Below are positions 8,318 to 23,904 of a DNA stretch of 37,784 nt, piece after piece. The DNA is from Prevotellaceae bacterium (GTDB taxonomy: Bacteria > Bacteroidota > Bacteroidia > Bacteroidales > Bacteroidaceae), in the NCBI GenBank assembly GCA_029218445.1, contig JAQXRI010000015.1:1-37784 (forward strand). Direction: 5' to 3'. The translations under genes and the position numbers were made by a program. Position 1 is the first letter of the stretch. Every line of letters begins with the position of its first letter. The notes beneath the pieces are model-generated. The model saw nothing but the letters and a program-made list of their open reading frames with translations. It was not told the origin of the DNA and ran no database searches.

Positions 8318-8384
8318 CTAAAAGTAAAGCAAACGGTAAAAACAATCTCTATTATTTATGCTATATTAACACACATACATATAT

Positions 8385-8590
8385 AAAAAAACACCCGCGT
8401 CATCTCGACGCGGGGCTTTACCTAATAACTAACCTTAAATCACTAACTTTTTTTTAATTTAATGCAATTAACAACTTACCAAATCAATGTAACTGTATGA
8501 AAAACCATTTACTGCAATTCTAAATATATTAGCAGTTAAAGCTAAAAACCAATGTATGAATATTAAAAGTAACGTCTTTGTCTTTTTTCT
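8385..8590 (-). ncRNA. Candidate orphan small RNA or long leader/attenuator
   Basis: Minus-strand TACCTTTG promoter element at 8595-8602 and terminator at 8394-8414 bound ~200 nt with no ORF of note. Confidence 0.4.
8394..8414 (-). terminator. Rho-independent terminator (minus-strand orientation) in the susD-araC intergenic region
   Basis: CCCGCGTC/GACGCGGG 8-bp stem; on - strand followed by TGTTTTTTTATAT. Confidence 0.7.
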
Positions 8591-8594
8591 GGTG

Positions 8595-8602
8595 CAAAGG
8601 TA
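8595..8602 (-). promoter_or_regulatory. -7 promoter element TACCTTTG driving the candidate sRNA/leader
   Basis: CAAAGGTA on + strand; TTGG about 17-18 nt upstream on the minus strand. Confidence 0.5.
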
Positions 8603-8813: not shown

Positions 8814-10835
8814 CTATTTCTCTGCGGGCTGGTCGGCTTCCAATGGCCAATAAGGATTCTGATACAGCGGACTGTTTTCCTTTGTGGCATAGTCAGGAGC
8901 GGTCAGCAGGAACTGCTTCAATGGCAGTGGCTGCAGATAGTGGGCCATGTGCCAAGTGAGTCCATTACGATAGTTGTTGCTTGCCGACATGTTCACCTCG
9001 TGTGGACGATAGTACTCGCTAAGGTCGGGTGAAGAAACTGTTGCACTGGTTGAACCATCGGCACGGAGATTGTAGCCACCGTCAACATAGAGTTGGTTTT
9101 GCTCGCTGTTCCACAAGTGGATACCTTCGATGTGTGCAGGGTTGTTCATAAGCTGGTCGTAAGAACGCCAACGCTGGAGATCCATCTGGCGGAGTCCCTC
9201 GGCGATGAGTTCACAACGACGCTCACGACGAATGTTGTAGAGCACCTTGTCGGTAAGGAGCTGGCCGGCAGTGTATGCACCCCAGTCAAGAGCTTCCTTG
9301 TTCATGTCGGTAGCGGCGATGGTTGTCTGTGGGTCAATGGCCTCGCCGGTAAATCCTGCACGCTCACGTACAATCTTCCAATATTCAAGTATTTTGCCTG
9401 AAGAAATGTTCTTGTTAAGCATATATTGGGCTTCCATGTAGTTGAGCAGAGCCTCGGTGGCACGGAAGATGACGGCACCGTTGGCACAGTTGCCGTTGCC
9501 CGTCTGCGACTTGTCGAACGTGCCGCCCTTGCGCAGAGCATAGCCCGTTACATAGTTCAACTCTGAGTTGTTGCCCATGATATCGGCCAATGGCTCTTCC
9601 AGAACGTAGTGGTCTTCAGGAGCACTCATGTTCTTAAACACATTCACCTGCCCCGGCTGCTTGAGGAAAATGGTGAGGCGTGGGTCGCGATCGACGGCTA
9701 CCTTATTCACTGTACCATCGTCATACTTATAGCTTGAAGCGTAGATAGGCTTACCGTCCTTCATCAGATAGCTCTCAATGAGACTTCTGGTAACGCCAAC
9801 ACCATAGTCGCCATGCTGTATGGCAACCTCAACGCAGTTGACGATGCCAAGGCTCTTGCTGTATTCACGCCAAAGTAGAACTTCAGGTGTTCCCGACATG
9901 TCGATAGATCCCCAAATGTTGAAGTATGGGTTTTCAGGGTCGCCCTCCTTCTGAGGAACACTACCAGTGTTGGTAGCAAGCTGATTCTTATATTTCTCGG
10001 CAACAGTCTCGGCAGCCTTTGCGGCAACCTCGAAGAAGAATTTTGCCTCTTGCTCGATGCTTCCGGCCGGATATTGATAGCCTGAATTATAGTCTTTATT
10101 GGCACCTGGCCAGCCCTGTCCCAGAGGAACGAATGGAGTTCCGGCGAAGTTGGTCAGCCAAGAACCCTCATATAGAGCCACGCGCGACTTCAGCAGATTG
10201 GCGACATCGGGAGAGATGCGTGTGTGGCGCTTCTCAAAGTCGCTCTTCAAATAGGTAAGTGCCGTGTCGAGGTTGTTGATGATGAAACGAGCCACCTCGT
10301 TGCAAGGACGACGCTTGTTGGCTGCAACGAGAGTTGCTTCCTCATCAGGCAGAGCCTCTGTCACGATTGGCAGGTCGCCCCACTTCTGAAGCATGTCGAA
10401 ATAGCAGTAGGCGCGCATGAAATAGATTTCGCCGATGTAGTGACGGACATTGGCGTCTGCTCCATTTATTTGCTTGTTCTTGTATGCAGCAACTACATTG
10501 TTGAGCTGATAGTTGATGTTGCGTATGTTGCCCCAGCTCCAGTTGCCGTTATCGTTGCCTGTCTTCCAAAGTCCATTGCCGAACTTGCTGTCGGGCCACC
10601 AGTTCACCTGGTTGTCGGTCTGAACGTCATTGGCATAAATGCCGTAGCTCCAGTTGCCGTGTCCCGGCAATACGTCCTGATAAAATTGGTTGGCGGCAGC
10701 TTCAACCTTACTCTCGTCAGAGAAGAATCCTTCTGGCGTAAGGGACGATGGCGGCTCCTGCTCAAGAAAATCGTTGCATGAAGTGGCAGTTGCCACAAGA
10801 GCCAAAGCCATGAATGATAATTTATATAGTTTCAT
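8814..10835 (-). CDS. RagB/SusD family nutrient-uptake outer membrane lipoprotein
   Basis: MKLYKLSFMALALVATATSCNDFLEQEPPSSLTPEGFFSD N-terminus; 'EIYFMRAYCYFDMLQKWGDLPIV' SusD motif; start chosen at internal Met. Confidence 0.95.
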   Translation of the reverse strand: MKLYKLSFMALALVATATSCNDFLEQEPPSSLTPEGFFSDESKVEAAANQFYQDVLPGHGNWSYGIYANDVQTDNQVNWWPDSKFGNGLWKTGNDNGNWSWGNIRNINYQLNNVVAAYKNKQINGADANVRHYIGEIYFMRAYCYFDMLQKWGDLPIVTEALPDEEATLVAANKRRPCNEVARFIINNLDTALTYLKSDFEKRHTRISPDVANLLKSRVALYEGSWLTNFAGTPFVPLGQGWPGANKDYNSGYQYPAGSIEQEAKFFFEVAAKAAETVAEKYKNQLATNTGSVPQKEGDPENPYFNIWGSIDMSGTPEVLLWREYSKSLGIVNCVEVAIQHGDYGVGVTRSLIESYLMKDGKPIYASSYKYDDGTVNKVAVDRDPRLTIFLKQPGQVNVFKNMSAPEDHYVLEEPLADIMGNNSELNYVTGYALRKGGTFDKSQTGNGNCANGAVIFRATEALLNYMEAQYMLNKNISSGKILEYWKIVRERAGFTGEAIDPQTTIAATDMNKEALDWGAYTAGQLLTDKVLYNIRRERRCELIAEGLRQMDLQRWRSYDQLMNNPAHIEGIHLWNSEQNQLYVDGGYNLRADGSTSATVSSPDLSEYYRPHEVNMSASNNYRNGLTWHMAHYLQPLPLKQFLLTAPDYATKENSPLYQNPYWPLEADQPAEK

Positions 10836-10888
10836 AATGCTTGTCTTTTTATTTTGTAATTGTTCACTTTTCACTATACACTTCTCAC

Positions 10889-13800
10889 TTAGAATGTTAC
10901 GTTAACACCAAACGAATAGGTACGCTGCAGAGGATAACCGTTGCTGTGGTCGGTACCTATGGTTTCCGGGTCGAACTGGTCGGGCAGACTTGTGATGGTG
11001 AAGAGGTTCTCCATCGACACGAAGAAACGTACATTGTTGAGTCCTACGGTTCTCAGCACATTCTTCGGCAGGGTATAGCCAATCTGCAGGTTCTTCAGAC
11101 GTACGTAGGCTGCATTGAGCAGGTAGCGTGTCTGTGCCTGAATGTTCTTGTCGCTGTAGAGTACGCGTGGAAGCCATGCGCCGGTGTTTTCTGAACGGTA
11201 GCCGTTCTGTACTGACCAAGAGTCGCCGTCGCGGAAGTAGTCGTCAACACCGGTAATACCAGCTGCCCACCATACGCCAGAGTTGGTTGTACCGAAGAGG
11301 TATTCAGCGCCACCGCCCCAAGAGCCAGTGAGTGCGAAGTCGCGCTTTAATACACCCTGGAAGAATGCGCTAAAGTCAAAGCCCTTCCAGCTTGCATTGA
11401 GGTTAAGACCAGTGAGGAAGCGAGGAGTAGAATTGCCTATGACCTTGAGGTCGCCATGGTCGTCGAGAGTTTCGGCGCCACGCGAAATCTTACCGTCACC
11501 GTTGAGGTCGGCATACATGATGTCGCCTGAAGCCCAGTTGCTGCCTATTGAGCTTTGGTCAACCTTTGCAAGATGAGCGTCCATCTCTTCCTGAGTCTTT
11601 GCGAGTCCTGCTGTCTCGAAGCCCCATATCTCATTGATGTAGCGTCCGGCTATATAAGTATAGATGTTGTTGGTAGGGTTGTTTGGATAGCGCGTAATCT
11701 TTGTACGGGCGTCAGAGATGTTGAACGTTGCACCGTATGAAAGGCCGTTGGCAAGACGGTCGCGCCATGTCAGCTGGAACTCCCAACCAGAGGTACGGAG
11801 GTCGGTGTTGTTGGTAACGGGCACACCAGTACCAAGTATTGAAGGCAGTTCAGGAGCGTTGCCCACCATGTCCTTGGTGTTGCGGATGTAGTAGTCGAAC
11901 GAACCGGTCAAACGGTTGTTGAACAATCCGAAGTCAAGACCGATGTCCCAGCTCTCGATGCGTTCCCATGTGAGAAGTGCCGAAACGAGGCTTGGAGCTG
12001 ATGTGACGTTAGGCTTCTTGCCGTTCTGCAGCCATGAGCCTGATGCGGGATAGTAGCCTACGGTCTGATAGGTCTGATACCAGTTGTTGGTGTTCTGGTT
12101 GCCGAGCGAACCGTAAGAGGCACGAATCTTCAAGGTGTTGACAGTGTTGACGAGTGGTTCCCAGAACTTCTCGCGTGCCACGTTCCAACCGAGTGATACT
12201 GAAGGGAATGTCTTCCACATGTGGTCGGTACGGAAACGTGATGTACCGTCGTGACGAATGTTGAACTCGAAGAGGTAACGCTCGTCGTAGTTGTAGTTCA
12301 AGCGGCCGAAGAAACCTGCCGTCTGCCACTGGTTGCGTGCGCCGTTGACAGAAGGAACAATCTCCTTGCCGTCGTAGCCAAGACCTGAGGTGAGGTCGAT
12401 TTCAGGACGTGTGGGATCGAGTATGCCGTTGCGCTGAACGCCAAACACGAGCTGCTTAAGTTGCTCTGCCTGGAAACCACCGAGTACGTGGAAATTGTGG
12501 CGCTTGGCAAGCTGGAATGTATATTCGGTGTAGGCCTGGAAGTTGAAGTAGTTCTCCTTCTTCAAGTCCTCATGAACGTTTGAGCTCTTGTCATAAACCC
12601 ATGGGTCTCCGTTCTCGTCGTAGTTGTATGTCATCTGCTTCTCCCAATGGCGAGTACTGTTGTCTGTACGATAGGTAAGGTCGAAGTGTGTCAGCCAGTT
12701 CTTTATTGGCTCAAGCACGAAACTCAACTGGTGAGTAAGAATGTCACGCTGTGTAAGGTCCTGACCCGCTGTGGCAAGACCAAGGGCAGGTGACGGAGAG
12801 TCAACATAATGGCCGTTGCGGTCGTAGAGAGGCAGTATAGGCCATCCCTGACGGGTCATGTCGTTGTAGAGGCTCTCGGTCAGCTTAGAGGGACGCTCAA
12901 AGTCGGTGCGTGCCCAACGCATGTTGTAGTTCATCTTCAGCCAGTCGGTAATCTTGATGCCCAATTTGGCTGTTCCAGTGTAACGATTGAACTTATCGTC
13001 GGCGAGCTTCATGAAACCGTTGTTGTTCAGATAGTTGAACGAAGCATAGTAGTCAACGTCTTCTGTACCGCCACTTACGCTGGCATTATGTTCCATAGAG
13101 AATGTCGAGGTCTTGAACACGGCATCGTACCAGTCAACGTCGTCAACACCATTGCCGTAGCCATCGGCATATACGCCATTGACGGCTTCAATGCCATAAA
13201 GTATGTTGCCATTGGCATCCTTTCGAGTGCCGGGACCTATAGGTGTGGCCTCGTGGTAAGCCTTGATTTTTGCCATGCGCTCGGCATCGAAGAATGTACC
13301 CCAACCAGAGTTGGCGTAAGCATCGTTGACCCAAGAAGCATAATCAACGGAGTTCATCATGTGCTTTTGGCTGATGAGGTTGCTGAAACGGAAACTGTTG
13401 TTGTAGTTAACAGTTGGCTTTCCGCTCTTACCTTTCTTGGTAGTTATGAGAATAACGCCGAAAGGCGCACGCGAACCGTAGATTGAAGACGCTGCGGCAT
13501 CCTTCAATACTGAGATGTTCTCAATGTCCTGAGGGTTCACTGTGTTGATGTCACCCTCGGCACCGTCAATAAGTATAAGTGGCGAACCACTTGAGCCTTG
13601 TCCTATAGTACCAGTACCACGCACGTTGATGCTCGTCGTAGCGTCCATAGAACCACTTGACGATGAAATCTGCAGACCAGGCATCATACCTTGCAATGCT
13701 TGAGCAGCACTTGTTACAGGGCGTTCGGCCAAATCGTCACCATTCACCATAGCGACGGCACCGGTCAGATTAACCTTCTTTTGAGTGCCGAAACCTACTA

Positions 13801-14182
13801 CGACAACTTCATTGAGTGAATGGGTGTCATCTTTCATTACAATTTTCATCGGAGCAGCTGTAGCCTTTACAACAATTGGCTTCATGCCGACATACGAAAT
13901 CTCAAGTTCTGCTCCTGGAGTTGCGTTGAGTGTAAAGTTTCCGTCGAGGTCAGAAATTGCCCCCCCCGAATTAGCTCCTTTAACCTTAATGGTAGCACCT
14001 ATTACGGCCTCACCACTTTCGTCAACCACTGTACCGGTAATCTTACCGACAGACTGCTGTACGCCTTGTGTAGCTTGAACTGCATACATCTCTTGTGGTG
14101 TCAGCGTAAGTCCTGCTGCCAGCGCCATCAAAAAGACGGTCGTCTTCGATGGTAATGAAAATGAATGTTGTTCCATAAACAT
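10889..14182 (-). CDS. SusC/RagA family TonB-linked outer membrane protein
   Basis: CarboxypepD_reg-like 'KITGTVVDESGEAVIGATIKVKG', TonB box/plug 'NEVVVVGFGTQKKVNLTGAVAMV', C-terminal 'RTYSFGVNVTF' beta strand; alternative Met at 14176. Confidence 0.96.
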   Translation of the reverse strand: MFMEQHSFSLPSKTTVFLMALAAGLTLTPQEMYAVQATQGVQQSVGKITGTVVDESGEAVIGATIKVKGANSGGAISDLDGNFTLNATPGAELEISYVGMKPIVVKATAAPMKIVMKDDTHSLNEVVVVGFGTQKKVNLTGAVAMVNGDDLAERPVTSAAQALQGMMPGLQISSSSGSMDATTSINVRGTGTIGQGSSGSPLILIDGAEGDINTVNPQDIENISVLKDAAASSIYGSRAPFGVILITTKKGKSGKPTVNYNNSFRFSNLISQKHMMNSVDYASWVNDAYANSGWGTFFDAERMAKIKAYHEATPIGPGTRKDANGNILYGIEAVNGVYADGYGNGVDDVDWYDAVFKTSTFSMEHNASVSGGTEDVDYYASFNYLNNNGFMKLADDKFNRYTGTAKLGIKITDWLKMNYNMRWARTDFERPSKLTESLYNDMTRQGWPILPLYDRNGHYVDSPSPALGLATAGQDLTQRDILTHQLSFVLEPIKNWLTHFDLTYRTDNSTRHWEKQMTYNYDENGDPWVYDKSSNVHEDLKKENYFNFQAYTEYTFQLAKRHNFHVLGGFQAEQLKQLVFGVQRNGILDPTRPEIDLTSGLGYDGKEIVPSVNGARNQWQTAGFFGRLNYNYDERYLFEFNIRHDGTSRFRTDHMWKTFPSVSLGWNVAREKFWEPLVNTVNTLKIRASYGSLGNQNTNNWYQTYQTVGYYPASGSWLQNGKKPNVTSAPSLVSALLTWERIESWDIGLDFGLFNNRLTGSFDYYIRNTKDMVGNAPELPSILGTGVPVTNNTDLRTSGWEFQLTWRDRLANGLSYGATFNISDARTKITRYPNNPTNNIYTYIAGRYINEIWGFETAGLAKTQEEMDAHLAKVDQSSIGSNWASGDIMYADLNGDGKISRGAETLDDHGDLKVIGNSTPRFLTGLNLNASWKGFDFSAFFQGVLKRDFALTGSWGGGAEYLFGTTNSGVWWAAGITGVDDYFRDGDSWSVQNGYRSENTGAWLPRVLYSDKNIQAQTRYLLNAAYVRLKNLQIGYTLPKNVLRTVGLNNVRFFVSMENLFTITSLPDQFDPETIGTDHSNGYPLQRTYSFGVNVTF

Positions 14183-14284
14183 TTAGTTTAATTGTTTGCT
14201 TAAGTTTATTTAGTGTCTTTATTAGTATTTAATTTTATGTCATTTACAGTTAGCACATGCGTATTTACACAATGTAAAACGTGG

Positions 14285-14297
14285 ACAACAATGTTGT
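14285..14297. promoter_or_regulatory. Palindrome ACAACAATGTTGT upstream of susC, possible regulator site
   Basis: 6-bp perfect arms around one base, ~105 bp upstream of the susC start. Confidence 0.25.
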
Positions 14298-14384
14298 TTT
14301 GGGTGCAAATTTCGCTCTTTTTTCGCAACTTTGCGTCCCCAATAAATCATTTTAGGTACATAAATAGTTATTTACGGGTATTTT

Positions 14385-15524
14385 TTAATAAATTTCCCAT
14401 TCTTCCTGCCAATTTATTACAGGCACGTCGTTTTCAAAGTCAATGGGCAGCCAAATGTAACGTGCATCGCTTGGATGTTTGGGGCGCCAAATGTCGGCCA
14501 TGAAGATATATTGGTCGCCACGCTGAAGTATATATGTTGACTGACCACCAAACGTAATGTCGGCCTTTGGCCCACGGCATGGGTTGGGGTGTTGTTTCCA
14601 AGGTCCCCAGATGCTTGGAGCCGAGAACATGCGGGCCATGTTCGGATCCCAGCCAGTGCATCCGCTGGTTATCATCCAATAAGTGTTGCCGCGTCGGAAA
14701 ATGGCAGGAGCTTCGTTTTGGCCACCGGGAGCCACGCGAGTGTAACGACCGGTATGCGCCGTATAGTCGGCGGTCAATTCAGCAATATGCAGCGTCAGAT
14801 TGTCTTCAGATGAAAAAATATGATAGGCACGTCCGTCGGTATCTACATAAAGGGTCATGTCGCGAGCCATCTGTCCCGCAGGCAGCTTATGTCCTTCGGT
14901 TTCGTGAGCCACAAGGTCGCGTTTCAGGAATAGGCCCTTCTTGATGGCATTACGCCAAACGGGAGTCCACCATTCCTTATAGTTTTCGGCATTCAGTGTA
15001 TCGAGCATGGCGATGTCGTCGGCAGTGAACTCTACGGGATATAGTCCGGCATTGGCACGGTCGGAACGCAAGAACTTGAAAGGACCCTTAGGAGAGTCGC
15101 TCGTGGCCACGCCATAGCGAGCCTGCCAATAGCCCTCGCCCTTCATTTCGAGGTGGAACCACATTACAAACTTCTTTGTAGCCTCATTGTAAATCACCTT
15201 TGGTCGTTCAAGCACGCATCCACGCTCAATGTCATGCCCTTTCTCGTCAACCACGCTCAAGGCCACGCCTTCGTAACGCCAGTCGGCAAGGTTTTTCGAC
15301 GAATAGCAGGTGACTCCCACCAGGGCGGAACTTGTGTCGTCAGCCTTATGTTCACCATACCAATAGTAAGTGTCGCCATGCTTCAGCACACCGCCACCAT
15401 GGGCATTGATGTGGATTCCCCGGTTGTCTTTCCATATTTCTCCCGGCTTGATGGTTCCCTTAGCCATAGCAAGGCATGGGAACAGTAACAGTATTAGTAC
15501 AGATAAGAATACTTTGTTGTTCAT
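14385..15524 (-). CDS. Glycoside hydrolase family 43-like secreted enzyme
   Basis: Signal peptide; 'INAHGGGVLKHGDTYYWYGEHKAD', 'ERPKVIYNEATKKFVMWFHLE', 'NEAPAIFRRGNTYWMITSGCTGWDPN' five-bladed propeller GH43 motifs. Confidence 0.85.
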   Translation of the reverse strand: MNNKVFLSVLILLLFPCLAMAKGTIKPGEIWKDNRGIHINAHGGGVLKHGDTYYWYGEHKADDTSSALVGVTCYSSKNLADWRYEGVALSVVDEKGHDIERGCVLERPKVIYNEATKKFVMWFHLEMKGEGYWQARYGVATSDSPKGPFKFLRSDRANAGLYPVEFTADDIAMLDTLNAENYKEWWTPVWRNAIKKGLFLKRDLVAHETEGHKLPAGQMARDMTLYVDTDGRAYHIFSSEDNLTLHIAELTADYTAHTGRYTRVAPGGQNEAPAIFRRGNTYWMITSGCTGWDPNMARMFSAPSIWGPWKQHPNPCRGPKADITFGGQSTYILQRGDQYIFMADIWRPKHPSDARYIWLPIDFENDVPVINWQEEWEIY

Positions 15525-15556
15525 AAGTTTTTTATTATAGAGTTAGATTTTCGTTG

Positions 15557-15564
15557 CAAAATTA
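15557..15564 (-). promoter_or_regulatory. -7 promoter element TAATTTTG for the GH43 gene
   Basis: CAAAATTA on + strand, 33 nt upstream of start. Confidence 0.5.
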
Positions 15565-15701
15565 GTGGATTATTGGATTAAATGTGGCTACATAAAATGA
15601 TTTTAGGGACAGAAAACGTTATTTCAAGCATCAAAAGCATCTTTTTTGGGCAGAAAGCAATAATATTTGTCTTTTAATGACGGTCTATTGATTTTTTTTT
15701 G

Positions 15702-15709
15702 TAACTTTG
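15702..15709 (+). promoter_or_regulatory. -7 promoter element TAACTTTG for the HTCS gene, preceded by a T9 tract
   Basis: TAnnTTTG match 41 nt upstream of ATG 15751. Confidence 0.5.
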
Positions 15710-15750
15710 CCACAACTAACAACTATTAAGGAAAGTCCATAAAACTGACG

Positions 15751-18700
15751 ATGAAAACAGCAACGACAATTATCCTATACTTATGCACAGCATTGTTTGC
15801 CCACGCATACGACTTGCCAAACAACGACGAGCATATTATAAACAACGCCGCACAAATAAGCATCCACGCCTTTGACAGCGACGAGTCAGGACGCTTGATG
15901 ATTGACCATAACGGCATGTTGTGGATGGGTTCAAGCAATGGACTCATATCGTTTGACGGCTATCTGTTCAAATCGTACAGGTCGGATGCCTTCACCACAG
16001 GCATTCTGCCAAACAACGTCGTAATATCGCTGACCGAAGACCTTGACGACAATATATGGATTGGTACGCGCGACGGACTGGTGAAAATGGACAGAAGAAA
16101 GGGCCTGTTCAAAACCTATAGGCTGCCGGGAAAGAACCAAAGAATTATATATTGCCTATACACAACCAAAGACGGAACGGTGTGGATAGGCACCGACGGA
16201 GGCCTGACGAGATACGACAAGAAGACCGACTCGTTCTACACTTACAACATCGACACTTACTATAGTGTAAAGTCGATAAAGGAAGACCAAAAGGGCAACC
16301 TCTACATCGGAACATGGGACTCGGGATTGATGCGCCTCCGTTCTGACCGCACTACCATTGACCAGTATCCACCGCTCAACTCCCTCAACTCGGCCTATTC
16401 GCTGTTCATCGACAGCCGCCAGCGACTTTGGATAGGCACGTGGGAATACGGAATGGCCATGATAGAGAATCCCGACAACTACACGAATCCCATAATCAAA
16501 CGCTACTACGCCCCTGGAAGCACGCTGAAGATAGTGAACAACATCATTGAGGACCCGCTGACCCACAAGATTTGGGTTTGCGGCAGAGAGGGCATCGGCA
16601 TATATGATGAAGGGGAAGACAAGTTCAGACTGTTTGAGAAATACAAGTATTGCGGCGACATAGTGACCGACAATCACGGACACATATTCGTGGCAACCGT
16701 GGAAAACGGAATACTCAAGCTGGACACCAACCCACGTGAATATAAAGTATTCCCTCTTAACGCTACTGCCGAAAGCCGTCCGGCAGGCAACATTGAAAGC
16801 ATGTACACAGCCGACGGACGATGGTTCTGGCTCGGACTTAAGCCATGCGGATTGGCACTTTACGATTTGCAAACTGGCAACACCTTATACAATATGGACA
16901 TCCCGCTGCTGAAACGCCACCCCGAGGCCGCCAATATTACCAAGGCCATCGTACCTTCGATAATAGGCGACAAGGGGAAAATATGGATGGCCAACAGCAG
17001 CTATGGATTATATATGGTCGATGGAGACGACATCAGGCTGATGAACACTGAAAACACCCATTTCATCGTTGACGATTACGTCAACTGTCTTTTCCGCGAC
17101 CGCGACGGCAACATCTGGGTAGGACAACGAGGCGGTCTGAGCGTGGTGTTCCCCGACCTTACAGGCAAACAAGTCATACTTAAGGACACAAAGAGAAACT
17201 ACTCTGTGTGTGATGTGAGAAACATCAGCCAAGACAAGAAAGGCAACATCTGGATAGCAACCGACAATGAAGGAATAATAAGACTTACGGGCAACCCACG
17301 ACAGCCCAAGGGCATAAGGACAAAACAATACAGTCCACGACACAACAACTTTGTGTCGAGCGAGGCCATGCAGTGCCTTGAAGACTCGCGCGGAAGGATG
17401 TGGGCGGTATCCAACGGCGGAGGACTGTTTGAATACAACGCCGCCACCGACTGTTTCGAGCCGCGCAACATGGAGTATCATATCACAGCTTCACGCATGT
17501 GCGCCATAACAGAAGACAACTTCGGCTGCATTTGGGTAAGTACCGACAAGGCGTTTCTCAAGCTCAACTTCAGCAATGGCAAGACTCCTTCCATAAAAAC
17601 ATTCCCCAACGAGGACGGGCGTGGAAAACGGCTTGCCTCAATGAACAACATCTACAAATGGGGCAACGAACTGTATTTAGGCGGCAACAGGGCTCTGCTC
17701 TCTATTACCCCCAAAAAGCCAAGAACTCAGGCAAAGCCCATTTCGAAACTCATTGTCACCGACATATACATCGACGACCAGCCTATAAAGTCAATTGACT
17801 CTCTTTTGCATCGGACAATCATCGATGACACGCCGATATATGCACAAAAAATCACCATTCCACCGACAATAAACAAGTTCTCCATAGAATTTGCACTGCT
17901 CAACTATTTCAACCAAGACCAAACGAGCTATGCCTATTTCCTCGAAGGATATGACAAAGATTGGCACTACATTGATGCCACTTCAAGAAAAGCCACTTTT
18001 GAAAATCTTCCTTGGGGAGAATACAAACTGTACATAAAAGCAACAGACAACTCGGGCAATACGCAAGAGCTGCCTTATGGCATCAGCATACACATACTTC
18101 CACCATGGTACGCCACATGGTGGGCTTTCGGTGGCTATATTATCATGCTTGTGGTTGTCATTTTGGTTTGCGTCATGTGGTACAGAAACTACATGTGGAC
18201 TAAAAACCGACTTCAGATGGCCGTCGTATTTACAAACATCACACATGAGCTGCTGACTCCACTCACGGTAATAAAGGCTGTGGTTGACGAGGTGAAGGCG
18301 GCATATCCGTCACTCGGCAACGAGCATGAGCTCATCAACAGCAACATCAACAAGATAACACGACTGCTCCGACAAATACTTGAAGTAAGAAAGTCGCAGG
18401 CAGGACAGCTGAAGATAAAAGTGAGCCAAAACGACCTTGCCGGCTTCATTTCGAACATCTGCCACAACCTGCGGCCTATGGCTACGGCCAAAAACATCGA
18501 CCTTACACTAAGGTGCGACAAGCCTGAAAGACTGGGCAAGGCATGGTTTGACACCGACAAAGTAGAAACAATACTAAGCAACCTCATCTCAAATTCCATA
18601 AAATACGGGAAAGAGAAGGGTGTGGTAGAAATCACCTTGACGCAAGAAAAAGGACAGGCCACAATCACCATAGAAGACAATGGAATAGGCATGAACCGAC

Positions 18701-19788
18701 AACAAATGAAGAACCTCTACACCCGTTTTCTTGACGGCAACTACAGAAAGATGAAAACCACCGGAACGGGCATAGGACTCTCGCTCACACACAATCTCGT
18801 GCAACTGCATCACGGCACGATAGACTGCAGAAGCAAGGAGAACGAAGGTACACTGTTCACCATAAGCCTGCCAATAGAGAAAAAAGCATACGCTGACAAC
18901 GAAATAGAACAGACAACGACAGAATACCTTGCCACAAAGGCCCTGGAAGAAAACCGCATTTCGGGCTACTCGCTGACAAGTCGTTCATCAACAGAAGATG
19001 GCGGCGACCGCGAATATACGGCATTGGTTGTGGAAGACAACGAAGAACTGCTCAACCTCATGAAGCACCTGCTTAAGAAAAGGTACAACGTGCTTACCGC
19101 CAAAAACGGCAAGCAGGCATTGAGGATAATACAAAGGGAAGAGCTCGACATCGTAATATCGGACGTTATGATGCCAGTAATGGACGGCATCGAACTGACA
19201 AGGCTGATAAAGAACGACAAGAACTATGCCCAACTGCCCGTGATACTGCTGACGGCGAAAACGCAGGAAGAAGACAAGAACAAAGGCTACGAGATGGGGG
19301 CCGACGACTACATCACCAAGCCCTTCAACCTCAACGACCTGATGCTGCGCGTGGAAAACATTATAAAAAACCGCTACCGCATAAGGGAAAAGTTTAAGTC
19401 GCAAACCGAATACAAGGTAGAGGAGCAGCACTACAGCAACCCTGACGAGGCTTTTGTAGAGAAGGCCATCGAGTGCATAAAGAACCATTTGGAGGATGCC
19501 GACTACGACCGCGAGTCGTTTGCCAACGACATGTGCATATCGTCGTCAACACTATACAACAAGCTGCGCGCCATTACGGGACAAAGCGTCACGGGATTCA
19601 TCACCTCGGTAAGACTGAAGGAGGCCTGCCGAATAGCACGCAGCACGCCGGGGATATCGGTAACGGAACTGTCGGTGAAAGTGGGGTTCAATACTCCAAA
19701 ATATTTCACCAAATGCTTCAAGAAAGAATTTGGCATGTTGCTGAAAGAGTATCTTGAGAACGAAAGCAAACAAGAGAAAAAGGAATAA
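15751..19788 (+). CDS. Hybrid two-component system regulator (HTCS): two-component-regulator propellers, Y_Y_Y, histidine kinase, receiver and AraC HTH
   Basis: Repeated 'IWIGTRDGLVKMD'-type blades; TM 'YIIMLVVVILVCVMWY'; 'NITHELLTPLTVI' H-box; 'DNGIGM', 'GTGIGLSL' ATPase; 'ISDVMMPVMDGIELTRLIK' receiver; AraC C-terminus. Confidence 0.97.
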   Translation: MKTATTIILYLCTALFAHAYDLPNNDEHIINNAAQISIHAFDSDESGRLMIDHNGMLWMGSSNGLISFDGYLFKSYRSDAFTTGILPNNVVISLTEDLDDNIWIGTRDGLVKMDRRKGLFKTYRLPGKNQRIIYCLYTTKDGTVWIGTDGGLTRYDKKTDSFYTYNIDTYYSVKSIKEDQKGNLYIGTWDSGLMRLRSDRTTIDQYPPLNSLNSAYSLFIDSRQRLWIGTWEYGMAMIENPDNYTNPIIKRYYAPGSTLKIVNNIIEDPLTHKIWVCGREGIGIYDEGEDKFRLFEKYKYCGDIVTDNHGHIFVATVENGILKLDTNPREYKVFPLNATAESRPAGNIESMYTADGRWFWLGLKPCGLALYDLQTGNTLYNMDIPLLKRHPEAANITKAIVPSIIGDKGKIWMANSSYGLYMVDGDDIRLMNTENTHFIVDDYVNCLFRDRDGNIWVGQRGGLSVVFPDLTGKQVILKDTKRNYSVCDVRNISQDKKGNIWIATDNEGIIRLTGNPRQPKGIRTKQYSPRHNNFVSSEAMQCLEDSRGRMWAVSNGGGLFEYNAATDCFEPRNMEYHITASRMCAITEDNFGCIWVSTDKAFLKLNFSNGKTPSIKTFPNEDGRGKRLASMNNIYKWGNELYLGGNRALLSITPKKPRTQAKPISKLIVTDIYIDDQPIKSIDSLLHRTIIDDTPIYAQKITIPPTINKFSIEFALLNYFNQDQTSYAYFLEGYDKDWHYIDATSRKATFENLPWGEYKLYIKATDNSGNTQELPYGISIHILPPWYATWWAFGGYIIMLVVVILVCVMWYRNYMWTKNRLQMAVVFTNITHELLTPLTVIKAVVDEVKAAYPSLGNEHELINSNINKITRLLRQILEVRKSQAGQLKIKVSQNDLAGFISNICHNLRPMATAKNIDLTLRCDKPERLGKAWFDTDKVETILSNLISNSIKYGKEKGVVEITLTQEKGQATITIEDNGIGMNRQQMKNLYTRFLDGNYRKMKTTGTGIGLSLTHNLVQLHHGTIDCRSKENEGTLFTISLPIEKKAYADNEIEQTTTEYLATKALEENRISGYSLTSRSSTEDGGDREYTALVVEDNEELLNLMKHLLKKRYNVLTAKNGKQALRIIQREELDIVISDVMMPVMDGIELTRLIKNDKNYAQLPVILLTAKTQEEDKNKGYEMGADDYITKPFNLNDLMLRVENIIKNRYRIREKFKSQTEYKVEEQHYSNPDEAFVEKAIECIKNHLEDADYDRESFANDMCISSSTLYNKLRAITGQSVTGFITSVRLKEACRIARSTPGISVTELSVKVGFNTPKYFTKCFKKEFGMLLKEYLENESKQEKKE

Positions 19789-19801: not shown

Positions 19802-20329
19802 ATGAAAATAGGCATTTTCTGTTCAGCCAACGACGACATCGACGCTGAATATTTCAAAAAGACGGAAGAACTGGGACGCTGGGCTGCCGAAAACGGACAT
19901 ACCATAGTGTTCGGAGGCTGCAACATGGGACTAATGGAATGTGTAGCCAAAGCCGCCAAACAGGCCGGCGGCACTACTATAGGCGTTGTGCCGACACTCG
20001 TGGAGGAAAGAGGGCGCATCAGTGACTGGCTCGACGTACACATCCCTTGTGCCGACCTCAGCGACCGCAAGCAACTGCTGATGCTGCAGAGCGACGTCTT
20101 CGTGGCACTGCCAGGTGGCATAGGCACACTCGACGAGGTGTTCACTGTTATGGCCTCGGCCACAATTGGCTATCATTCAAAACGTGTGATACTCTACAAC
20201 ATCAACGGCTTTTGGAACAGCCTTATAGCAATGCTCAACGATTTGGAAAGAAAAGGTGTCGTACGCGGACAGTGGCAAAAACATCTCACGGTTGCTGCTA
20301 CACTGGAAGAAATTAAAAATATATGTTAA
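19802..20329 (+). CDS. LOG/TIGR00730 family Rossmann-fold protein (putative nucleoside 5'-monophosphate phosphoribohydrolase)
   Basis: 'VFGGCNMGLMECVAKAA' and 'LPGGIGTLDEVF' (PGGxGTxxE) motifs; start at MKIGIFCSAND. Confidence 0.92.
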   Translation: MKIGIFCSANDDIDAEYFKKTEELGRWAAENGHTIVFGGCNMGLMECVAKAAKQAGGTTIGVVPTLVEERGRISDWLDVHIPCADLSDRKQLLMLQSDVFVALPGGIGTLDEVFTVMASATIGYHSKRVILYNINGFWNSLIAMLNDLERKGVVRGQWQKHLTVAATLEEIKNIC

Positions 20330-20426: not shown

Positions 20427-21371
20427 ATGCGTAAAGTAATAGGTATAGGAGAGACTGTGCTCGACATCATTTTCAAAAACGACCAACCCATCAGCGCCGT
20501 TCCAGGAGGCTCGGTGTTCAATGGTCTCATCTCTTTGGGACGTGCAGGCGTTCAAACTTCATTGATAAGCGAAACCGGCAACGACCGCGTTGGCCGCCGT
20601 ATAGTCAGTTTCCTTGAGGAGAACGGCGTCGATGCGTCAAACGTCAACATCCATAAAGACAGCAAGTCGCCACTGTCATTGGCATTTCTCAACGACAACA
20701 ACGATGCCGAATACGTGTTCTACAAAGACCATCCCCACGACCGCCTCGACTTTGACTATCCTGAGGTGAACGCCGACGACATTGTGATGTTCGGCTCGTT
20801 CTATGCGGTCAATCCCGTCATTCGCCCGCAAGTGGCAGGATTCCTTGAATATGCCAAGAGCCACGGAGCGATAATATACTACGACGTCAACTTCCGCTCG
20901 TCGCACAAGAGCGAGGTGATGAAGATAACGCCCAACATGCTTGAGAATTTCGAATTATGCGACATTCTGCGAGGCAGCCGCGAAGACTTCGACGTGCTGT
21001 TTGCGAAAACCGATGCCGACTCCATCTACCGCAACAACATATCATTCTACACCCGTAACTTCATAATGACCCAAGGCGCCGAGCCGATAGAGCTAAGGGC
21101 CAACGGCGGCATAAGCAAAAGCTACGCCGTGGAGCCGACGGAAACAGTAAGCACCATAGGCGCAGGCGACAACTTCAATGCAGGATTCGTGTATGGACTA
21201 ATGAAATACGGCATCACCCGCCAACAAATAATGCATGGTCTTGCCACTGAGCAATGGGACAAGCTCATAGCCTCAGCGCAGAGGTTTTCGGCAGAGTGCT
21301 GCAAGAGCATAAACAACTACATTTCGGCCGACTTCGGAGCGACGCTGAAAGCGGAAGACAAGATACAATGA
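20427..21371 (+). CDS. PfkB family carbohydrate kinase
   Basis: 'IGETVLDIIFKND...AVPGGSVFNGLISLGRAG' N-terminus and 'TVSTIGAGDNFNAGFVYGL' C-terminal signature. Confidence 0.93.
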   Translation: MRKVIGIGETVLDIIFKNDQPISAVPGGSVFNGLISLGRAGVQTSLISETGNDRVGRRIVSFLEENGVDASNVNIHKDSKSPLSLAFLNDNNDAEYVFYKDHPHDRLDFDYPEVNADDIVMFGSFYAVNPVIRPQVAGFLEYAKSHGAIIYYDVNFRSSHKSEVMKITPNMLENFELCDILRGSREDFDVLFAKTDADSIYRNNISFYTRNFIMTQGAEPIELRANGGISKSYAVEPTETVSTIGAGDNFNAGFVYGLMKYGITRQQIMHGLATEQWDKLIASAQRFSAECCKSINNYISADFGATLKAEDKIQ

Positions 21372-22593: not shown

Positions 22594-22669
22594 AAAATTA
22601 AAAAATTAAAGGATTAAAGTTCGTTGGCTCAACAGAACTTTAATTCTTTAATACTTTAATTATTTAATG
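22588..22669. repeat. Large intergenic hairpin built of four 8-bp repeats per arm
   Basis: Left arm (AATTAAAA/AATTAAAA/AATTAAAG/GATTAAAG)TTC 22588-22622; right arm GAA(CTTTAATT/CTTTAATA/CTTTAATT/ATTTAATG) 22635-22669; loop has further GTTG/CAAC pairing. Confidence 0.85.
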
Positions 22670-22671
22670 AA

Positions 22672-23904
22672 ATGAAATACAACACCGCTACATTACCCAA
22701 CGGACTAAGAATAATACATCTGCCTTCAACATCACAGGTAGTTTACTGCGGCTACGGCATCAATGCAGGCACACGCAATGAACTGCCTGGTGAAGAAGGC
22801 GTAGCCCACTTCTGCGAGCATACCACATTCAAGGGGACGGAACATAGGCGAGCATGGCACATCATCAACTGCCTTGAAAACGTTGGCGGCGACCTCAATG
22901 CCTTCACCAACAAGGAAGACACCGTATATTACTCAGCCATACTGAAAGAACATACGGCAAAGGCGGTTGACTTGCTGTCGGACATCGTGTTTCACAGCCG
23001 CTATCCACAAGCCGAGCTTGACAAGGAGATAGAAGTTATATGCGACGAGATAGAAAGCTACAACGACTCGCCTGCCGAACTGATATACGACCTGTTTGAA
23101 AACATCATTTTCGAAGGCCATCCACTTGGCCACAACATCTTGGGTAACTCACAGCAGCTGCGCACCTATACCACCGCTACGGCACTTGGTTTTACGAGCA
23201 GATACTACAAGCCCCACAATGCCATATTCTTTGCATACGGCGACATCGACTTCAAGCGTCTCGTGAACATTCTGAAACGTTCGACAAAGGGATTTCCCGC
23301 CGCCCAACCCACCGTTGGCGATGCCGACGTGGCAACTCCACTGCCGCCTTACGTGCCGCAAGAGAAGACGATAGACAAGGGAACCCACCAAGCCCACGTG
23401 ATGATTGGCAACCGTGCCTACAGCGTACACGACGAACGCCGCATGGCCCTCTATCTGCTCAACAACATACTTGGCGGCCCTGGCATGAACGCCCGTCTTA
23501 ACCTTTCGTTGCGCGAGCGTCACGGACTTGTATATACCGTAGAGAGCTCGATGGTGAGCTACAGCGACACTGGCGTATGGTGTGTGTATTTTGGCTGCGA
23601 CCCTCACGACGTGTCTCGTTGCCGTCGTCTTGTGGGCAAGGAGCTGCAGCGTGTCATAGAGAAGCCTCTAAGCACAGCACAGCTCAATGCCGCCAAGCGT
23701 CAGATAAAAGGTCAGTTGGGAGTGGCCTGCGACAACCGCGAGAGCTTTGCCCTCGACTTCGGCAAGAGCTTCCTGCACTATGGCTGGGAAAAGGACATCC
23801 ACAACCTCTTCCAACGCATCGACGCACTCACGGCCGAGCAGATACAACAAGTCGCCCAAGAAACATTTGCTCCTGAGCGACTTACTACGTTGATTATAAA
23901 GTGA
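22672..23904 (+). CDS. M16 family metallopeptidase (insulinase-like)
   Basis: 'GVAHFCEHTTFKGTEHR' (HxxEH) motif and 'NNILGGPGMNARLNLSLRERHGLVYTVESS'. Confidence 0.95.
   Translation: MKYNTATLPNGLRIIHLPSTSQVVYCGYGINAGTRNELPGEEGVAHFCEHTTFKGTEHRRAWHIINCLENVGGDLNAFTNKEDTVYYSAILKEHTAKAVDLLSDIVFHSRYPQAELDKEIEVICDEIESYNDSPAELIYDLFENIIFEGHPLGHNILGNSQQLRTYTTATALGFTSRYYKPHNAIFFAYGDIDFKRLVNILKRSTKGFPAAQPTVGDADVATPLPPYVPQEKTIDKGTHQAHVMIGNRAYSVHDERRMALYLLNNILGGPGMNARLNLSLRERHGLVYTVESSMVSYSDTGVWCVYFGCDPHDVSRCRRLVGKELQRVIEKPLSTAQLNAAKRQIKGQLGVACDNRESFALDFGKSFLHYGWEKDIHNLFQRIDALTAEQIQQVAQETFAPERLTTLIIK

Follow-up and report, generated by a model that had tools for sequence, protein, structure and literature searches.

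The window analysed here is the whole stretch of 37,784 nucleotides from a Prevotellaceae bacterium (contig JAQXRI010000015.1). It carries a PUL, a LOG-family gene and a sugar kinase. Between susD and an AraC-family gene, it also carries a predicted small RNA (sRNA) on the - strand. The genes on the susD side of the sRNA are the following.

8814-19788, mixed strands: PUL between the sRNA and the LOG-family gene (Pfam)
8814-10874, - strand: susD (Pfam)
10889-14182, - strand: susC (Pfam)
14385-15524, - strand: GH43 (Pfam)
15751-19788, + strand: HTCS, hybrid two-component regulator (Pfam)
19802-20329, + strand: LOG-family gene (TIGR00730, NCBIfam), 79% identical to the sRNA-adjoining LOG gene of genome G348
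20427-21371, + strand: PfkB-type sugar kinase (NCBIfam, fructokinase-like), 79% identical to the sRNA-divergent kinase of genome G119

The predicted unit itself, together with the elements that delimit it, reads as follows.

8774-8739, - strand: terminator of the susCD unit, GCCCTCG..CGAGGGC and then a T-run, separating susD from the sRNA (seen in the sequence)
8602-8595, - strand: -7 promoter element TACCTTTG of the sigma-ABfr type (seen in the sequence; TAnnTTTGCA stands at the matching place in all orthologs and in a paralog)
8590-8384, - strand: predicted sRNA transcript of ~200 nt (orthologs roughly 100-200 nt; the unit is kept in 5 genomes)
8414-8384, - strand: intrinsic terminator, an 8-bp GC-rich hairpin and a T-run (sequence, strict scan and ortholog conservation)
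8317-8310, - strand: -7 element TAAATTTG of the AraC gene itself, downstream of the sRNA terminator (seen in the sequence)

The transcription start site is expected at about 8590-8588 on the - strand. The terminator hairpin consists of CCCGCGTC-GAGAT-GACGCGGG at 8414-8394 on the same strand, and is followed by the tail TGTTTTTTTA. The original prediction had described a -7 element at 8602-8595, about 200 nt devoid of a significant ORF and a GC-rich hairpin with a T tail at 8414-8394, all of them downstream of the susCD terminator and upstream of an element at 8317-8310 belonging to the AraC gene. Each of these was found in its place. The - strand of the sRNA body holds no ORF of at least 80 aa, the longest small ORF having 10 aa, and the hairpin is conserved in the orthologs.

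At loose settings, terminator-like sites showed no excess (5 found vs. 5.6 expected from shuffles). Genome-wide site counts covered 1.57 Mb of this genome, window included. When terminators were defined strictly (a perfect 8-bp stem, at least 5 G/C and at least 6 T), only 5 occurred on both strands of these 1.57 Mb. A TAnnTTTGC[ACG] site was followed by a strict terminator within 30-230 nt in 1 of 559 cases, the sRNA site, with 0.3 expected by chance. Judging from sequence comparison, this arrangement of promoter and terminator is not a product of chance, because it is conserved in four other genomes.

Conservation of the unit and of its neighbours

The first lead to orthologs came from weak matches to the Rfam family RF04319 (FopS) in genomes G119 and G120, which brought up a G120 sequence that has TTAGTGATTTAAGGTTAGTTATT..AGGTAA and the terminator in common with the window. 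The genus sample comprised 398 genomes, with this genome, G119, G120 and G348 included, while G438 (the genome of Prevotella sp. SUG549) lies outside the sample; many of the compared genomes are metagenome-assembled or incomplete. Two segments of the predicted transcript recur among the orthologs.

8493-8475, - strand: block A-like segment GTTACATTGATTTGGTAAG, the counterpart of which is GGTTACATTGGTTTAGATTTTTTGGTAAG in the LOG-locus orthologs
8447-8419, - strand: block B, the conserved core GTTAGTGATTTAAGGTTAGTTATTAGGTA (21-mer search and orthologs)

Block B is G/U-rich and C-poor, and stands directly before the intrinsic terminator. Its 21-mer TTAGTGATTTAAGGTTAGTTA was found without mismatches in G120, G348 and G438 and with a single one in G119. 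The other matches in the 398 genomes had 2-3 mismatches and were about as frequent as, or less frequent than, those of a reversed-pattern control. A longer motif gave no match elsewhere at up to 3 mismatches, because the orthologs carry a 2-nt insertion. The pre-terminator sequence (8447-8417), which the original prediction had called motif-like, thus proved near-identical in four other Prevotella-group genomes. The 5′ body of the sRNA is poorly conserved across the orthologs.

A covariance model, R1, was built from the four sequences of the window, G119, G120 and G348. It scored 85-87 bits in these members, and the next best score in the 398 genomes was 43 bits. The fifth ortholog, that of G438, was not used for the model and scored 85.6 bits (E 9.6e-14). 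BLASTN searches of 1.57 Mb of this genome with the G438 and G119 members returned the sRNA locus as the only strong match (E values of 8e-14 and 1.5e-13, respectively). Whole-region BLASTN against the relatives gave only a generic promoter segment and chance matches. In all members, the core is preceded by TAnnTTTGCA and followed by a GC hairpin and a T-run. Lack of conservation had been named beforehand as a point that would speak against the unit; the segment is conserved, though narrowly, with carriers in 4 of the 398 genus genomes (this one included) and in G438. Matches of the R1 model at 35-43 bits were a mix of other promoter-proximal short RNAs and susD 3′-UTR terminators, and were not counted as family members because of this mixed nature.

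Besides its LOG-locus copy, G120 holds a paralog (G120:C111:17038-17238) in an intergenic region unrelated to the LOG-kinase pair. This paralog has block A, a TTATCCC promoter and a terminator, and no block B.

Block A is present as an exact 23-mer in G120 (twice), G348 and G438; it is diverged in the window and degenerate in G119. The G120 paralog carries the first 23 nt of block A GGTTACATTGGTTTAGATTTTTTGGTAAG without block B. Positions 8489-8481 of block A are able to pair with 8449-8441, the partners being CAUUG(G/A)UUU in block A and (A/G)A(A/G)UUAGUG at the start of block B, and 36 of 36 cells are paired in four sequences. This pairing is kept in all four block A members, with three one-sided compatible changes. 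In the terminator hairpin, one pair is altered on both sides yet kept (G-C to U-G; U-A in G438). Covariance across related Prevotella had been proposed as a check on the prediction; the kept pairing between the blocks and the two-sided change in the terminator go in that direction and, coming from four sequences, are no more than a suggestion.

Block A also bears on the reading of the transcript as a dual-function RNA that encodes a small peptide. In one frame, it would be translated as GYIGLDF within ORFs of 26 aa in G120 and 43 aa in G438. However, G120 and G348/G438 are no longer in the same frame past block A, stop codons lie immediately before this block in G348 and in the paralog, and the window ORF is limited to 10 aa. 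No conserved ORF was found in the sRNA among the members, and a coding function is scarcely credible.

The gene content around the sRNA provided insights into its history. In each of G120, G348 and G438, a LOG-family gene and, behind it, a PfkB-type kinase lead away divergently from the sRNA; the divergent gene in G119 is the kinase. In the window, LOG and kinase still point away from the sRNA, with susCD, GH43 and HTCS in between and a distance of 13 nt from the HTCS stop codon to the start of LOG. G119, G120, G348 and G438 have no PUL between the sRNA and LOG or kinase; of the genomes compared, this one alone has it there. These arrangements suggest that LOG and kinase are the ancestral divergent neighbours of the sRNA, and the simplest history is that insertion of the PUL probably parted LOG from the sRNA. 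The original prediction had presented the RNA as PUL-adjacent. Because the conserved neighbours are LOG and the kinase, and the PUL lies in between here only, the adjacency of the sRNA to the PUL, to susD and to AraC is probably incidental or secondary. The case cautions that PUL adjacency is not to be taken as PUL function.

Two readings of the stretch had been put forward, namely a free sRNA and a long 5′ leader of the AraC-family gene, the terminator of which would act as a regulated attenuator. In the window, the AraC gene is indeed the next one on the sRNA strand, 126 nt past the terminator. Yet this gene has its own TAAATTTG promoter, and its close orthologs (73-78% identical) sit behind unrelated genes without such a leader. 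No conserved alternative antiterminator hairpin was found. Meanwhile, the unit of promoter, core and terminator is kept in G119, G120, G348 and G438, in none of which an AraC gene comes after the sRNA: downstream, G120 and G348 have a convergent MATE gene, G119 has a convergent ORF without an assigned identity, and G438 has a gene other than MATE. The attenuator leader was rejected on synteny, the link between terminator and AraC not being conserved, and we regard it as very improbable. The free sRNA is the part of the original alternative that stood. Because the promoter-core-terminator unit recurs in genomes where no AraC follows, we interpret the stretch as a free-standing sRNA gene on the - strand, with a probability of about 0.85.

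The promoter upstream region

Two further elements are found upstream of the -7 element of the predicted sRNA gene.

8654-8644, - strand: upstream element TTTTGTTGTCC, TTTTGTTnCCC-like (aligned in G120, G348, G438 and the G120 paralog, gapless or with a 1-nt shift)
8629-8623, - strand: TTATCCC box at -33, with 20 nt between it and the -7 element

The -33 box reads TTATCCC in the window, in G119 and in the G120 paralog, TTACCCC in G438, and TTTGC or TTTCC in G120 and G348. The spacing between the box and the -7 element is 20-21 nt in the members with TTATCCC or TTACCCC. In five of the six members, the TTTTGTTnCCC-like element follows another ~15-20 nt upstream; it is possibly an activator site. 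These features set the sRNA promoter apart within its own genome: in 1.57 Mb, TATCC takes the -33 position at 1 of 436 TAnnTTTGC[AG] sites, the sRNA promoter alone. In the 54 nt that precede the -7 box, the window is identical to G438 at 35 and to the paralog at 30, more than at any of the 427 other promoter-like sites of the genome (maximum 26). For G119, G120 and G348, a few background sites equal the upstream identity. The shared TTATCCC box and upstream element suggest that the promoters of these sRNAs are co-regulated through a shared regulator.

The gap that separates the susD terminator from the sRNA promoter contains a near-perfect palindrome of 24 nt, ACGTGAATT-TCGTCG-AATTCACGT (window 8732-8709). 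It is the sole copy in the 1.57 Mb of genome and is a possible operator.

Relation to known sRNA families

An Rfam scan had been proposed for the locus, with 6S and Bacteroidales-1 among the families of interest. No family, these two included, matched at gathering score anywhere in the window. In a permissive scan, RF04319 (FopS) matched the motif and terminator at 8441-8382 with 26.1 bits (571-nt scan). The match reached 30.1 bits in a shorter, 111-nt scan and 26.1 bits genome-wide (E 0.114), against a gathering cut-off of 56 bits for this family. It covers model positions 19-71 only, which correspond to GAUUUAAGGUUA and the terminator. GibS (RF04182) gave no match to the window at E values up to 5.

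The FopS family consists of ~70-nt sRNAs, which in B. thetaiotaomicron act as repressors of SusC translation; its conservation was reported in Bacteroidaceae, and Prevotella was not mentioned (PMC11697453). We found canonical FopS copies in most Prevotella genomes, with 1-6 matches each (e.g. L028-L057) and hardly any variation in promoter, seed and terminator. They exceeded the cut-off in 137 of 150 genus genomes and displayed the seed GTGTTTTTCATAGTATTAGAT directly after the promoter.

The sRNA resembles FopS in being an intergenic Bacteroidales sRNA with an AU-rich single-stranded region and an intrinsic terminator (PMC11697453), a layout generic to terminated sRNAs. Both have a TAnnTTTG promoter and, directly before the terminator, UUAG..AUUUAAGGUUA; the inner 12-mer GATTTAAGGTTA of block B is also part of the FopS consensus. 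The R1 model in turn picks up a FopS at 35.8 bits, and the window displays a GGUUUUUCAU stretch upstream of the core that resembles the R1 seed. These likenesses, along with the sub-threshold match, would be consistent with a diverged member of the FopS/GibS family (RF04319/RF04182) that regulates SusC-type genes. However, 26-30 bits fall below the gathering score, the FopS 5′ R1 seed GUGUUUUUCAU(A/G)GUAUUAGAU is absent from the window sRNA, and the orthologs do not share the GGUUUUUCAU stretch. The orthologs also lack UUUUUCAU, unlike the Prevotella FopS copies. The -33 box is TTGC in FopS promoters vs. mostly TTATCCC in the sRNA family. Moreover, FopS is multicopy and ~70 nt long, whereas the sRNA was found in one copy in this genome, measures ~100-200 nt, has blocks A and B and lacks an R1/R1′ seed. 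FopS membership was rejected, the score being sub-threshold and the seed missing, and a diverged FopS/GibS member is an unlikely description of this RNA. On the tests made, the sRNA appears to represent a new, narrow family of an already known kind rather than a member of FopS.

Other Bacteroides sRNAs share the general layout. GibS (RF04182, PMC7366714) is likewise a stand-alone intergenic sRNA of ~140 nt, with a non-canonical -30 promoter box and an end terminator; unlike GibS, our sRNA has no R1 or R2. MasB and BatR of B. thetaiotaomicron (~100-154 nt) are also intergenic, with their own promoter and terminator (PMC10994844, PMC10861873). Their loci differ from that of the sRNA, which has no Rfam match at gathering score. 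MasB is narrowly conserved, and both MasB and BatR pair at or near the 5′ region of their target mRNAs (PMC10994844, PMC10861873). In the literature searched, there is little work on sRNAs of Prevotella, and the described families FopS, GibS, MasB and BatR all come from Bacteroides. With its promoter, core and terminator defined, this conserved single-locus sRNA lends itself readily to experiments.

This genome also encodes a GibS/FopS-like sRNA at G000:C8:7732-7804 (L022 1501-1573, - strand), with 52.8 bits and a full R1 seed; it scores 38 bits against GibS RF04182. This GibS/FopS-like kind (50-54 bits) is also the only one in G119 and G120, neither of which has a FopS above the cut-off, in contrast to the 137 of 150 genus genomes. 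Between two + strand genes of the window, positions 22604-22685 form an AT-rich imperfect inverted repeat (AATTAAAGGATTAAAGTTC..GAACTTTAATTCTTTAAT), with a weak RF04319 match at chance level (18.3 bits).

Proposed mechanism and other short RNAs

Translation-initiation regions are the pairing sites of the Bacteroides sRNAs GibS and FopS (PMC7366714, PMC11697453). We compared segments of the sRNA with 1011 predicted start regions, counting sites below -10 kcal/mol against 60 dinucleotide shuffles. The FopS consensus, used as positive control, yielded 382 sites vs. 247 +/- 43, with 0 of 60 shuffles as high and no enrichment at control CDS positions. The sRNA segments gave a weak signal at most: before correction for multiple testing, shuffles with at least as many sites numbered 4/60 for the R1-like segment, 10/60 for block B and 12/60 for block A1, and block A2, with 37/60, showed none. 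The complementarity of the sRNA to its neighbours susC, LOG, kinase, HTCS and AraC was unremarkable.

We propose that the sRNA would be transcribed from its own sigma-ABfr-type promoter, with an upstream region specific to the family, and released at the intrinsic terminator near 8384. Its G/U-rich segments could then pair in trans with A/C-rich translation-initiation regions, and, by analogy with GibS and FopS, this pairing would repress translation. A free sRNA gene that also has a generic trans-acting role is likely. Of the modes of action considered, base pairing, drawn from the analogy, is the most likely one, at somewhat less than even odds.

Instead of pairing with mRNAs, the repeated GUUAG/UUAGG core might serve as a sponge or decoy that titrates an RNA-binding protein. 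The core carries UUAG three times and is conserved as primary sequence, and RbpB, an RRM-1 protein, binds FopS via a region that contains a similar pre-terminator sequence (PMC11697453). However, the search of this genome, a MAG that is 87% complete, revealed no RRM_1 protein, and we consider a decoy quite unlikely.

Returning to the trans-acting sRNA, a broader scenario can be outlined tentatively. The LOG-locus copy and paralogs such as G120:C111 could form a small co-regulated sRNA family, distant kin of FopS via the pre-terminator element, with a dedicated promoter class defined by TTATCCC at -33 and the upstream TTTTGTTnCCC site. Such a family might link the LOG/sugar-kinase operon to post-transcriptional control, the PUL having moved in between here. 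Taken as a whole, this scenario is possible, if on the doubtful side.

Further promoter-proximal short RNAs were observed in other Prevotella genomes (L206-L209, L214/L226, L215/L219/L227, L225/L228, L220 and L222). In order, they display TAnnTTTGCA, 25-100 nt with little C and much GTTAGTT/GGTTAAGG, and a terminator of the GTCGTGATGAC type. Several of them recur between genomes, and they may constitute other sRNA families. Similar C-poor GTTAGT stretches also precede the terminator in susD 3′ UTRs of several genomes (L211, L213, L216 and L231).
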